Part shown: positions 58,940 to 62,949 of the stretch, piece by piece
How the letters are laid out: every line of letters starts with the position of its first letter
Position numbering within the stretch: the stretch's first letter is position 1
Assembly (NCBI RefSeq): GCF_003569045.1
Contig: NZ_BFCB01000003.1
Span: 1,922,001-1,986,000, forward strand
DNA: 64,000 nt
From: Aggregatilinea lenta
Lineage (GTDB): Bacteria > Chloroflexota > Anaerolineae > Aggregatilineales > Aggregatilineaceae
Direction of reading: 5' to 3'
Notes under the pieces: model-generated
What the model was told of the DNA's origin: nothing
Database searches by the model: none
The model's input: the letters and a program-made list of their open reading frames with translations, nothing else
Translations under genes and position numbers: made by a program

Positions 58940-59974
58940 ATGAAGAAGGTCTTCCCAGTTTTAGTGGCTGCGGTCTTCACGCTGTCGGTACTGCTCGCGG
59001 TGCCGGTGACGTCGGCCCAGGGGGATTTGGGCAGCGAAGATAACCCGATCCAGGTTTACTTCGTACCCTCGACCGAAGCTTCAGTTATTGTAACCGGCGG
59101 CGAAGTCATGGCTGCCGCACTCGAAGAGGCTACCGGCCTGAACTTTGAAGTCTTCGTTCCGACCTCGTACGCGGCGACCGTTGAGGCGATGTGCGCCGCA
59201 CCGGACAGCTCGATGGGCTTCATCCCCGCGGCTGGCTACGTGATCGCCAACCAGCGCTGCGGCGTGGAAGTGTCGGCAGCAGCCGTGCGTTTTGGGTGGC
59301 CGGCTTACTGGGCGGAATACATCGTGCGCCGCGACAGCGACATCTACACCTTCGGCGATCTGGATGGCAAGACCTGGGGCTATGGCGACCCCGGCTCGAC
59401 CTCCGGCTACATCGTGCCGTCAGTTGAGCTGGCCGCGGCAGGCCTCACGCCCGGCTCCGAAGTGCAGACCGGCGGGCATAACCAGACCGTGCTGGCCGTC
59501 TACAACGGCGAAGTGGACTTCGGCACCGTGTTCTTCAGCCCGGCGCTGATGCCTGAAGGTTATGCTGCGTGGCAGACGGGCGACCTGCCTGAGCCGTACG
59601 ATCTGACCGTGGACGAGTCGTACATCGGCGACGATGATAACCTGTACGTCGGCGACATCCGCATCATGGACGCGCGCGCCAACGTGCGTGACACCGCCCC
59701 GGACGTGATCGAGCAGGTCCGCATCCTGCGCCTGAGCGCCCCGATTCCGAACGATACGCTCAGCTTCGGCCCTGAGTTCCCGGCGGAGCTGCGCCAGCAG
59801 ATCATGGACGCGCTGATCGCGTTCTCCGGCACGGAAGCATGGAACCAGTCCATCGGCAGCGAGGACTTCTACGCGTGGAGCGGCCTGGAGCCGATCGACG
59901 ACGCGGCGTACGACCCGGTCCGCCAGCAGATCGAGATCCTCGGCCAGAGCGAAGAGGATATCCTCGGCGGGTAA
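58940..59974 (+). CDS. phnD: Phosphonate/phosphite/phosphate ABC transporter substrate-binding protein
   Basis: The 344-residue protein has a signal peptide (cleavage near SAQGD) and fits the PhnD-like family of binding proteins for phosphonates, phosphite or phosphate, with VPSTEASVIVTGGEVMAAALEE, the GYGDPGSTSGYIVPS region of the anion pocket and FGTVFFSPAL. AAGGAG lies seven bases before the ATG. It begins the phn-type operon with phnC and phnE. Which oxyanion it binds cannot be told. Confidence 0.87.
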   Translation: MKKVFPVLVAAVFTLSVLLAVPVTSAQGDLGSEDNPIQVYFVPSTEASVIVTGGEVMAAALEEATGLNFEVFVPTSYAATVEAMCAAPDSSMGFIPAAGYVIANQRCGVEVSAAAVRFGWPAYWAEYIVRRDSDIYTFGDLDGKTWGYGDPGSTSGYIVPSVELAAAGLTPGSEVQTGGHNQTVLAVYNGEVDFGTVFFSPALMPEGYAAWQTGDLPEPYDLTVDESYIGDDDNLYVGDIRIMDARANVRDTAPDVIEQVRILRLSAPIPNDTLSFGPEFPAELRQQIMDALIAFSGTEAWNQSIGSEDFYAWSGLEPIDDAAYDPVRQQIEILGQSEEDILGG

Positions 59975-60057: not shown

Positions 60058-60816
60058 ATGCTGAAGATAGAACATCTCACAAAAGTTTATGACAACGGGG
60101 TAGTTGCCCTCAAAGATGTGAGCTTTGAAGTGCCCGACGGCCAGTTTTTGGTGATCATCGGGCTCAGTGGGTCGGGTAAGTCCACGCTCCTGCGCTGCAT
60201 CAATCGCCTGATCGAGCCGACCGAGGGCCGCATTATCTGGGACGGGGTTGATATTACGGAGGCGACCGACGAAGAACTGCGCCAGATCCGCCGGCGCATC
60301 GGCATGATTTTTCAGCATTTCAATCTGGTCAAGCGCTCGTCCGTGCTGACCAACGTGCTGTCCGGTCGGTTAGGCTATACCAGCCCGCTGTGGAGCATCG
60401 TGAATCACTTCTCGCGCGAAGATCGCCAGAAGGCGCTGGAAAAGCTGGGGCGCGTGGGTATCGCGGACAAGGCTTCGATCCGCGCCGACCAGCTCAGCGG
60501 CGGCCAGCAGCAGCGGGTGGGCATTGCGCGCGCGCTGATGCAGGAGCCGGAACTGATGCTGGCCGACGAGCCGGTCGCCAGCCTGGACCCGGCCACCTCG
60601 CATTCGGTGATGAAGTACCTGGAGCGCCTCAACCACGAGGACGGTATCACGATTATGTGCAGTCTGCACTTCCTCAGCCTGGCGCGCGCCTATGGTGACC
60701 GCATTATTGCCTTGAAAGATGGCCGGATGGAGTTCGACGGCGATCCGGATGAGATTGATGACCAGCGGTTCCGTGACATTTACGGCGAAGACGCTGTGCG
60801 CGTCGAGATTTCATAG
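60058..60816 (+). CDS. phnC: Phosphonate ABC transporter ATP-binding protein
   Basis: The 252-residue ATPase has Walker A GLSGSGKST, a loop LSGGQQQRVGIARAL, Walker B LMLADEPVASLDP and switch His. Size and the MIFQHFNLVKRSSVLTNVLSGRLG segment match PhnC. ATG 60058 follows GGGGAG; the longer frame upstream has no family match. It lies nine bases before phnE. Confidence 0.92.
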   Translation: MLKIEHLTKVYDNGVVALKDVSFEVPDGQFLVIIGLSGSGKSTLLRCINRLIEPTEGRIIWDGVDITEATDEELRQIRRRIGMIFQHFNLVKRSSVLTNVLSGRLGYTSPLWSIVNHFSREDRQKALEKLGRVGIADKASIRADQLSGGQQQRVGIARALMQEPELMLADEPVASLDPATSHSVMKYLERLNHEDGITIMCSLHFLSLARAYGDRIIALKDGRMEFDGDPDEIDDQRFRDIYGEDAVRVEIS

Positions 60817-60825
60817 GAGCGCGGC

Positions 60826-62949
60826 GTGAATAACCAGACCCCCCGATCCTCTCGCTCGGCCCTGCGCGTCTTGCTCATCGTGCTGGCCGTGGCGGTCGCC
60901 CTGGTGGTGTACGCCTACGGCTGGACCACAACCGATATCAGCCTTGACGAAGTCCAGGATCCCACACGCACCACGAACGTGCAGCGCGCCCTGCGCGAGC
61001 TGTTCAACCCCGACCTGTTCGACCGTGACCGCGAGTCGAAGTCGTATTTTATGGACTTCTTCATCGGCTGCCCGGAAGAAGACCAGCGGAGTGGACGCGT
61101 TGACCTTGAAGACGACGCGTACGTTGTCGTGTCGCCCGTGTGCGCCGATCCCGACGACGTGATCACGGTGGAAGGCTTCAACTTCCCCGACAACGCCATC
61201 GCTGGCATCCGCCTCAACCGGGCGACCGGGCAGGCGCAGCCGTTCAGTATCATCAACGCGGCGGGCGTGAATACCCAGGAATCGGTGTTCGACGTCGACA
61301 ACACCGGTTACTTTAAGGTGAACGTGAAAGTGCCCCGCGCGCGCGGCCTGTCGGGCGAAACGCATCAGGTCGAGTTCCAGACGGTGTCGCCGTCGGGCTT
61401 GCCACACTTCAGCGAGACGGCCCGTACCGTCGGCGACAAGATGGTCGAGACGATCTTCCTGGCGTTGATGGCGACGACGCTCGCCGTACCGATCTCGGTC
61501 GTGCTCAGCTTCCTGTCCGCGCGCAACCTCATGCGCGAGATCGGTGTGCCGCTCGGCACGGTGCTGGTTGGCTTTATGCTGCTGCCGGTCGGCGCTGTCT
61601 TGGGCTGGGTACTGCTGGGTCGATTAGGCAAACTGGGCGTTGACTGGGGCGAAAAACCCCTGGCCGGGATTCTGGCTGCCGTCATTGCGCTGGCGGCCCT
61701 GGTCGTGGCCATGCGCGCCATCAATAGCATTGAGCTTCCTACGGGCACGCCCTGGCCGCGCCGCTTCCGCTCGCTGGTGATGAACGTCCTGCTGCTGACG
61801 GTGGGCGTGTTTGTGCTGGGTGCGCTGGGCGGTGTGCTGATTTGGCTGGGCGAGCAGCTTGATTCGGGTTTCGCGGAATACCTGGGCAATTTCGTCGGGA
61901 CGCTGGGCCAGCTCATCGATCTCACAATCGCCGGGGTCGGGGCCATCGGTGGGGCAGCGCTGCTCGGCTCGGTTGGCTCGAACTGGTCCGCCGACCTGCT
62001 GCGTCACGTGCAGGAGCCGTTCAGTAACATCTTGGGCGCGATCTTCGGCATGGTGTCCGGCGCGCTGCTGATGACGGTGGCAGCGTACATTGGCGGGCAG
62101 GCGGTGCTGCTCAGTCTGCTGAACGCGCTTGTCGCAGCGCTGCTAGGCGGCGAAGTTGCCGTGCTGGCGTACCAGCGCCTGTTCCAGACGCACGACGGTA
62201 AGCGGCAGGCCCACCACGAGGACACGCGCGGCGACGATGCATCGCGCACGCTGCTGTTCGTCATCGGCGCGGTGGCGGCGTTCCTGCTCACCGCGTGGAT
62301 CCTTGACCTGCTGCGCGCCGTGGTGGACGGTCGTCCGCCGTCGGAGCGTGAATGGGAGATCCTGGGCATCGGCATCCGCATCTACCTGGGCGAAGCCGCG
62401 ATCATCGGCGGAATCCTGGGGCTGATCGCGGGAGCGCTGGCCGGGGTGAACTCGACCTTCCCGCTGGGGCTTGCGGTATATAACACCTCGCGCACGATCC
62501 TCAACGCGCTGCGCTCCATCGAACCCCTGATCATGGGTATCGTGTTCGTGATCTGGGTCGGGGTAGGGCCGTTTGCGGGTGTGCTGGCGCTGACGCTGCA
62601 CTCCATCGCGTCGTTAGGCAAGCTGTACTCCGAACAGGTGGAGAGCATCGAGTCCGGGCCGATCGAAGCGGTCCAGGCGACGGGCGCGAACCGCCTGCAA
62701 ACCATCGTCTACGGCGTCGTGCCGCAGATCATCCCACCCTATATCGCGTTTACGATGTATCGCTGGGACATCAACGTGCGTATGTCCACCATCATCGGCT
62801 TCGTGGGCGGCGGCGGTATCGGCTTCCTGCTCCAGCAGCAGATCAATCTACTGCGCTACCAACAGGCGGGCGTCGCCGTGCTGGCGATCGCCATCGTCGT
62901 CTCCGTGCTCGATTACTCTAGCGCCGCGATCCGCGAGCGCTACGTGTAG
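60826..62949 (+). CDS. phnE: Enlarged phosphonate ABC transporter permease (PhnE-like)
   Basis: The protein is 707 residues, against about 260-290 for PhnE. It begins with one helix (about 14-30), then an outside domain of about 150 residues with an IPT/TIG-like pattern (DPDDVITVEGFNFPDNA, about 108-124). The first PhnE permease part is at about 200-237 (MVETIFLALMATTLAVPISV). A long multi-helix insertion (about 240-540) follows, and the rest of the permease with the EAA loop (EAVQATGANRLQTIVYGVVPQ) ends the chain. Translation starts at GTG 60826 after GGAGC. It is the only permease of this operon. Confidence 0.85.
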   Translation: MNNQTPRSSRSALRVLLIVLAVAVALVVYAYGWTTTDISLDEVQDPTRTTNVQRALRELFNPDLFDRDRESKSYFMDFFIGCPEEDQRSGRVDLEDDAYVVVSPVCADPDDVITVEGFNFPDNAIAGIRLNRATGQAQPFSIINAAGVNTQESVFDVDNTGYFKVNVKVPRARGLSGETHQVEFQTVSPSGLPHFSETARTVGDKMVETIFLALMATTLAVPISVVLSFLSARNLMREIGVPLGTVLVGFMLLPVGAVLGWVLLGRLGKLGVDWGEKPLAGILAAVIALAALVVAMRAINSIELPTGTPWPRRFRSLVMNVLLLTVGVFVLGALGGVLIWLGEQLDSGFAEYLGNFVGTLGQLIDLTIAGVGAIGGAALLGSVGSNWSADLLRHVQEPFSNILGAIFGMVSGALLMTVAAYIGGQAVLLSLLNALVAALLGGEVAVLAYQRLFQTHDGKRQAHHEDTRGDDASRTLLFVIGAVAAFLLTAWILDLLRAVVDGRPPSEREWEILGIGIRIYLGEAAIIGGILGLIAGALAGVNSTFPLGLAVYNTSRTILNALRSIEPLIMGIVFVIWVGVGPFAGVLALTLHSIASLGKLYSEQVESIESGPIEAVQATGANRLQTIVYGVVPQIIPPYIAFTMYRWDINVRMSTIIGFVGGGGIGFLLQQQINLLRYQQAGVAVLAIAIVVSVLDYSSAAIRERYV

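Follow-up and report, generated by a model that had tools for sequence, protein, structure and literature searches.

Permeases of type I importers are usually compact. MalF of E. coli has a large outer domain, P2, just before its permease core and MalG as a partner beside it; MalF is not known to have a helix bundle in the TM1-TM2 loop of its core. Neocarzinostatin-type and PGS Ig-like domains occur as free secreted proteins or as surface repeats. According to PMC3150292, P2 comprises MalF residues 91-271 and contacts MalE. The picocyanobacterial phnDCE system is described in the abstract of PMC10284923, according to which most strains are without C-P lyase and the system is hypothesised to be a phosphate transporter; permease architecture is not a subject of that abstract.

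The phnDCE operon

The window (the whole stretch of DNA that was analysed, 64,000 nucleotides from Aggregatilinea lenta) contains three genes in the order phnD-phnC-phnE:

58940..59974, + strand: phnD-type substrate-binding protein, 344 aa; PF12974 at 6.8e-43; signal peptide without a lipobox according to the lipobox scan
60058..60816, + strand: phnC-type ATPase, 252 aa, ATG start; TIGR02315 at 5.8e-104, 346.8 bits against a cut-off of 266.1
60826..62949, + strand: phnE-type permease, 707 aa, GTG start; TIGR01097 over the cut-off, homologues found

phnC ends 9 bp ahead of phnE, which is the last gene of the operon and is followed by two genes which, recognised by eye, we take to code for ribosomal proteins S12 and S7. 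With phnD and phnC directly upstream, phnE has a binding protein gene and an ATPase gene of its own, as a type I ABC importer does. The product of phnD passes the cut-off of the subfamily model TIGR01098 and does not reach that of the PhnD equivalog TIGR03431 (NCBIfam).

The open reading frame at 60826-62949 encodes a PhnE-family permease of a phosphorus-compound importer from the Chloroflexota, more than twice the usual size. The initial annotation, made from the letters of the DNA, had called it an oversized PhnE, and both parts of this name hold: the 707-residue product scores 235.1 bits (8.5e-70) against the NCBIfam PhnE model TIGR01097, whose cut-off is 216.7 bits and whose length is 252 positions. 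It resembles other members of the family in this score, in the phnDCE operon and in the conserved C-terminal core, and differs from them in its length, in an outer domain (probably Ig-like) and in the additional helices that separate TM1 from TM2. Instead of one unbroken PhnE domain there are two TIGR01097 stretches about 285 residues apart, residues 190-238 corresponding to model positions 50-93 and residues 524-706 to positions 71-251. Pfam BPD_transp_1 (PF00528) is matched at 1.7e-16 (60.9 bits against a gathering threshold of 26.4) and is matched by all 38 members examined at E<=0.1.

Architecture of the permease

The permease is composed of the following parts, all on the + strand:

60850..60930, + strand: TM0 anchor helix, residues 9-35 (hydropathy and model)
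60931..61419, + strand: outer region, residues 36-198, with a beta domain, probably Ig-like, at about 70-188 (model, Foldseek, alignments, profile)
61420..61533, + strand: likely core TM1, ending in SARNLM, residues 199-236 (PhnE model 50-93, invariant residues, 4yms_C match)
61534..62460, + strand: helical insert of about eight TM helices, residues 237-545 (309 residues)
62116..62370, + strand: part of the insert absent from six-helix relatives, residues about 431-515 (alignment, numbers counted by eye)
62461..62946, + strand: core TM2 to the end, with an EAA-type loop E614-A615...G620, residues 546-707 (PF00528 at 532-700, alignment)

The conserved core is therefore interrupted at two loops: the outer loop ahead of TM1 holds the probably Ig-like domain, and the TM1-TM2 loop holds a bundle with a predicted even number of helices. 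An AlphaFold2 model built on a 38-row alignment (mean pLDDT 76.8, pTM 0.67) has a helix at residues 9-35 followed by a beta-rich domain at about 70-188, so the single helix and the beta-rich outer domain announced by the initial annotation ahead of the permease are reproduced. Eight long helices lie between residues 243 and 539, with 10-residue blocks at 81-96, except for 451-470 and 501-510 at 67-77. Hydropathy agrees on eight helices within the insert. The earlier statement that extra hydrophobic helices split the permease before the EAA loop can thus be refined to residues 237-545, which follow core TM1 (...ARNLM) and precede core TM2 on the predicted cytoplasmic side. The core itself had been thought intact, and PF00528 at 532-700, the conserved alignment and a core dN/dS of about 0.01-0.02 bear this out. 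In the model its block means are 47-71 from residue 561 on.

The helix in front of the insert (199-236) is likely core TM1. It was modelled at low confidence (helix 199-230, block means 34-70), and its assignment is based on conservation and on one structural match. T209, A213, L214, A216, S228, F229, A232, N234, L235 and M236 are invariant in the 38 alignment rows, and the best structural match of the model, the solved permease 4yms_C, spans model residues 190..671 (Z 11.0, rmsd 5.2, 164 aligned), a Z-score in the range, below about 13 for helical proteins, where the structure-search tool urges caution. The last helix of the insert is also matched by TIGR01097. Two other sets of structural matches were set aside: the highest-ranking Foldseek hits for the complete model, Wntless among them, reach E-values as low as 5e-5 with TM-scores of about 0.1, and the receptor channels found on residues 262-393 (Z about 7-8) are below the trust level of the tool for helical bundles. 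We regard the architecture as firm and infer the roles of the outer domain and the bundle.

The outer domain

The outer domain had been described as IPT-like. This description is supported in part: the fold looks Ig-like, and a sequence match to the Pfam IPT/TIG family was not seen. Foldseek finds the neocarzinostatin family with probabilities of 0.91-1.00, but E-values of 0.12-0.41. At E<=1, the NCBIfam Ig-like GxPGS family matches 6/30 outer domains (best 4.8e-4) and the chromoprotein family 3/30 (best 1.9e-4), Pfam Big_11 matches one of the 30, and the domain of the window itself matches none of these three families. Pfam IPT/TIG (PF01833) is absent from the matches at E<=1 for all 30 outer domains, and the IPT protein 5e7g_A reaches E 0.35 only. 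The domain is probably Ig-like, resembling neocarzinostatin-type and PGS Ig-like domains by these Foldseek probabilities and weak profile matches. It differs from them in its place: they are free or form repeats, whereas the outer domain encoded in the window sits inside a permease. The best VIA rows, MATH at Z 7-8, are below the trust level of the tool, and CD276 rows were rejected, as they pass only as summed weak repeats. Cysteines 82 and 106 are found in at least 90% of the alignment rows; most members have two cysteines, and L114-L118 and the Nitrospinota rows, for instance, have none.

A census of 196 different cores, in which a whole outer domain was defined as a profile score of at least 50 over at least 100 positions, found it in 81 of 97 permeases without an insert, 54 of 64 with inserts of 213-239 residues, 24/26 with 294-347, 6/6 with 171-172 and 2/3 with 146-147. 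The misses include L217 and L257, which have cut or short starts, and L082_511, which reached the score and not the coverage. Contigs labelled Spirochaetota, Nitrospinota and Armatimonadota also code for the domain. It is commoner than the insert and, as far as the rooted 135-row tree of sequences can tell, older. Since its profile also matches other proteins in these genomes, some of which carry it three times in succession, the domain probably serves as a portable module at the surface; the triple copies were seen in frames of about 498 aa in G024:C58, G030:C9, G035:C8 and G049:C338.

Some loci contain two consecutive phnE copies, E1 and E2. In all seven such loci with an insert in the first census, the outer domain is whole in E1 and missing from E2, an arrangement resembling MalF-P2 beside MalG. 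Both copies carry the domain in six tandem loci without an insert (L094, L095, L134, L135, L140, L145), so one domain per transporter is not a rule. L025, L029, L030, L049, L050 and others have a further N-terminal PhnE module with a PGLGQ-like motif; three members scanned have a weak likeness to TM2, DUF5683 or DUF6677, below the curated cut-offs.

Distribution, size classes and conservation of the insert

The whole-protein query has matches in 37 of 61 related genomes at E<=0.001, and full-length homologues at 45-65% identity are present in many genera. In the class-level draw 283/396 genomes match, many of the matches being weak or core-only; at the phylum level 65/301 match at E<=1e-20. 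The initial annotation had proposed a search for the same arrangement in relatives. The insert-only profile finds it in 24/61 genomes, in 25 places, every one of them inside PhnE, and detects no free-standing copy of the insert in the 61 related genomes. In all relatives with an insert, the bundle is at the same TM1-TM2 spot.

PhnE surroundings were taken from 100 places and the window. As the loci were hand-picked, mostly from the better matches, the class shares given here are not frequencies in nature. Of 121 rows, 73 have an excess length of about 0 between TM1 and TM2, one has 146, four have 171-172, 25 have 213-235 and 18 have 294-323; two core hits lacking a recognisable TM1 were left out of this count. 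Eighty named loci, some from the same genomes, add inserts of 146-147, 171, 218-239 and 294-347 residues. Inserts of about 146, 172, 213-239 and 294-347 residues fit four, four, six and eight helices, respectively. Aligned and averaged hydropathy gives eight, six, four and four helices by class, with seven for the E2 subset (two of its peaks are 19 residues apart). Single-sequence hydropathy is noisy: eight helices are seen in 16/18 eight-helix inserts, six in 12/18 and 3/7 six-helix inserts and four in 3/5 four-helix inserts. Ahead of their last helix, eight-helix inserts contain about 85 residues that six-helix inserts lack. Lys and Arg are commoner in the predicted inside loops of the eight-helix, six-helix and 172-residue classes, and have no inside preference in the 146-residue class (3.7 vs 3.4).

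No part of the protein is less conserved than the insert, whose mean identity is 42% vs 88% for the core (17 of 23 eight-helix relatives). Five close pairs gave insert dN/dS values of about 0.07, 0.11, 0.11, 0.07 and 0.31, compared with about 0.01-0.02 for the core. The low conservation is compatible with weak function too. Among 18 rows, the insert positions that are conserved hold mostly Gly, Ala, Leu or Pro. Within its predicted TM helices no polar residue, charged or uncharged, is at least 88% conserved, and the three conserved charged residues, R237, R497 and D501, are at the insert start or in a loop. This points to packing rather than to a second pore. Pfam and PDB gave no relative of note, and we attribute the leading PDB matches (GPR4, E 0.15) to chance.

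Possible roles of the outer domain and the bundle

With about even confidence, we propose that this is a working modular PhnE of a PhnDCE-type importer, in which the outer domain would dock PhnD, the bundle would form a lateral scaffold in the membrane and the cargo would be a small phosphorus oxyanion. PhnE is presumed to be a homodimer that lies between PhnD above it and PhnC beneath. On the outer face, the outer domain may touch PhnD and hold it in position, in the way that MalF-P2 acts on MalE. A docking or sensing role of this kind, also suggested by the initial annotation, is plausible from the position of the domain. Both MalF and the window permease are type I importer subunits with a large outer domain ahead of the core; MalF belongs to another permease family than PhnE, and the resemblance of the outer domains is one of position. 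The bundle would sit in the lipid beside TM1, entering and leaving at the cytoplasmic side, so that with both its ends cytoplasmic the core topology would be kept. Rather than being a second pore, it may stabilise or space the subunits. It might have arisen once, or up to three times, within PhnE without an insert, its size shifting mostly by helix pairs. We are more tentative about a wider claim, that PhnE of Anaerolineae represents stepwise polytopic growth, with a homologous bundle in a cytoplasmic loop that gained or lost helices by pairs to reach four, six or eight, about 13 predicted TM helices and a selected role in assembly or control; this seems possible and rather unlikely.

The strongest rival to the scaffold reading is near-neutral accretion, in which paired helices are tolerated at a lipid-facing loop and the bundle has little specific function. 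The lowest conservation in the protein, the prevalence of Gly, Ala and Leu, size classes in helix pairs and the many relatives without an insert (73/121 rows) all suit it, but the constraint in close pairs (insert dN/dS 0.07-0.31) and an insert length stable across many genera do not, and we consider this reading unlikely, if worth taking seriously. We find it improbable that the bundle controls the transporter as a sensor of a lipid, a partner protein or the state of the membrane. The conserved loop residues R497 and D501 and inner loops rich in Lys and Arg could be read in this way; however, the insert matches no known domain, and strongly conserved polar residues are absent from the inside of its helices.

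Relations and origin of the insert

The three large insert classes have hhalign probabilities of 91-100 among themselves and below 1 against the PhnE core, reversed-sequence controls for these comparisons giving 0.1-3.1. At the level of sequence profiles the three classes are homologous to each other and have no detectable similarity to the core. The 146-residue insert of L144 has profile probabilities of 90, 69 and 0.9 against the six-helix, eight-helix and E2 classes, and the 146-residue inserts of L262 and L272 have 71, 5.6, 11.5 and 20.7 against the six-helix, eight-helix, E2 and four-helix classes; L144 compared with L262/L272 gives 78.

All trees were quick searches. In the tree of TM1 and the core, all insert rows but one of the 48 group in a single branch with an SH-aLRT support of 94, or 99 without nine distant rows, and forcing all 48 together is not rejected (p-AU 0.488). 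A 135-row tree was obtained by adding 26 of the 80 named loci and removing from the first set 13 rows that were distant or had long branches. Here, 63 insert rows form one branch (97), with L144, L262 and L272 outside, and a single clade of all 66 has a p-AU of 0.33 at a log-likelihood lower by 16. Most inserts thus appear to belong to one clade, and a single origin is not rejected by these sequence trees. The eight-helix state is found in three places of the 135-row tree (the window clade, L247_587 and L236_730), which is compatible with either several gains or several losses. The insert clade includes rows whose contigs are labelled Acidimicrobiia or Actinobacteria; they could represent transfer or mis-binned contigs. 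Six loci (L236, L251, L253, L264, L269, L285), five of them in Acidimicrobiia-labelled contigs, code for insert-bearing PhnE of 730-789 aa, and five of the six have about 130-180 extra residues ahead of TM1.

PhnE with two cores in tandem within single genes of 687-908 aa is encoded at L111, L112, L130, L131 and L132; such double-core genes were also noted at L275, L277 and L283. The former, fused and found nearby, together with the resemblance of the last insert helix to PhnE TM1 in TIGR01097, might suggest that the insert descends from the first copy, now decayed, of a PhnE-PhnE tandem fusion. With the insert-versus-core profile probability below 1 and one core only in the permease, the second not being found, such an origin is very improbable.

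One genome, G028, has two PhnE copies (G028:C19, or L008, and G028:C1), one with two in-frame stops and the other matched in two separate frames. Despite these copies, an assembly chimaera or pseudogene is refuted for the window gene by its relatives, as the same architecture is open in many separate genomes, including on large contigs, and is under purifying selection.

PhnD, its lipid anchor and the cargo

The solved protein nearest to the PhnD of the window is the phosphite-binding PtxB (1.5e-16). PhnJ was not found in the genome of the window and is present in two of 61 related genomes, G025 and G032. In these, the PhnJ regions (L298, L299) each encode a separate PhnE of normal size (318 and 306 aa), and the large PhnE is located elsewhere in the genome, so a C-P lyase link of the large PhnE was rejected. 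In having phnDCE without PhnJ, the genome of the window resembles the picocyanobacterial strains of PMC10284923, most of which are without C-P lyase. PstC is over the cut-off in 54/61 genomes and PHO4 in 18/61. As the genome of the window has both, PhnDCE is not its only candidate for phosphate import, and we do not regard it as the primary phosphate importer. The cargo would likely be a small phosphorus oxyanion.

PhnD encoded beside eight-helix PhnE has no lipobox in any of 17 usable loci, compared with 4/55 without a lipobox in the other classes; PhnD frames cut at the 5' end or of at least 430 aa were left out of this count, and in L074, one of the four, the start was probably called too late. 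We considered a lost lipid anchor of PhnD as the reason for a docking domain and rejected it, as a control gave the same picture: none of 30 SBP_bac_1 proteins from six eight-helix genomes (L153-L182, the loci of best matches) has a lipobox in its signal peptide. The missing lipobox therefore belongs to the lineage and not to the enlarged PhnE. lgt was found in 61/61 genomes and lspA in 57/61. A separate PhnD-type frame of 704 aa at L097 (8477-10588, - strand), also without a lipobox, has a start that looks LysM-like by eye.

Other permeases of the lineage

Thirty loci were examined for sugar-type permeases beside binding proteins. All 17 complete ones have 302-334 aa; one further frame, outside the 17, is cut by the end of its stretch. 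Enlargement is therefore not general to ABC permeases in this lineage. PstA-type permeases, named by their place after PstC, are enlarged to 460-1530 aa in six of seven Pst regions, most of which were picked for long frames; the one in L297 has 285 aa. In L291-L296 the enlargement is mostly a long stretch before the core. The PstA-type permease in the genome of the window (L291 3596-5257) has 554 aa, and that of L296, with 1530 aa, has WD-like repeats by eye.

Implications

We recognised no description of an enlarged PhnE in the literature searched, which did not include preprints and most subscription papers. This is a real and widespread variant of PhnE, undescribed within that literature. 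The phnE name alone is no reason to annotate these genes as phosphonate genes. The outer domain may represent a docking device like MalF-P2 in a second permease family. Since a whole helix bundle is found at a single site of the permease, with size classes in living lineages, growth by helix pairs can be traced and tested.
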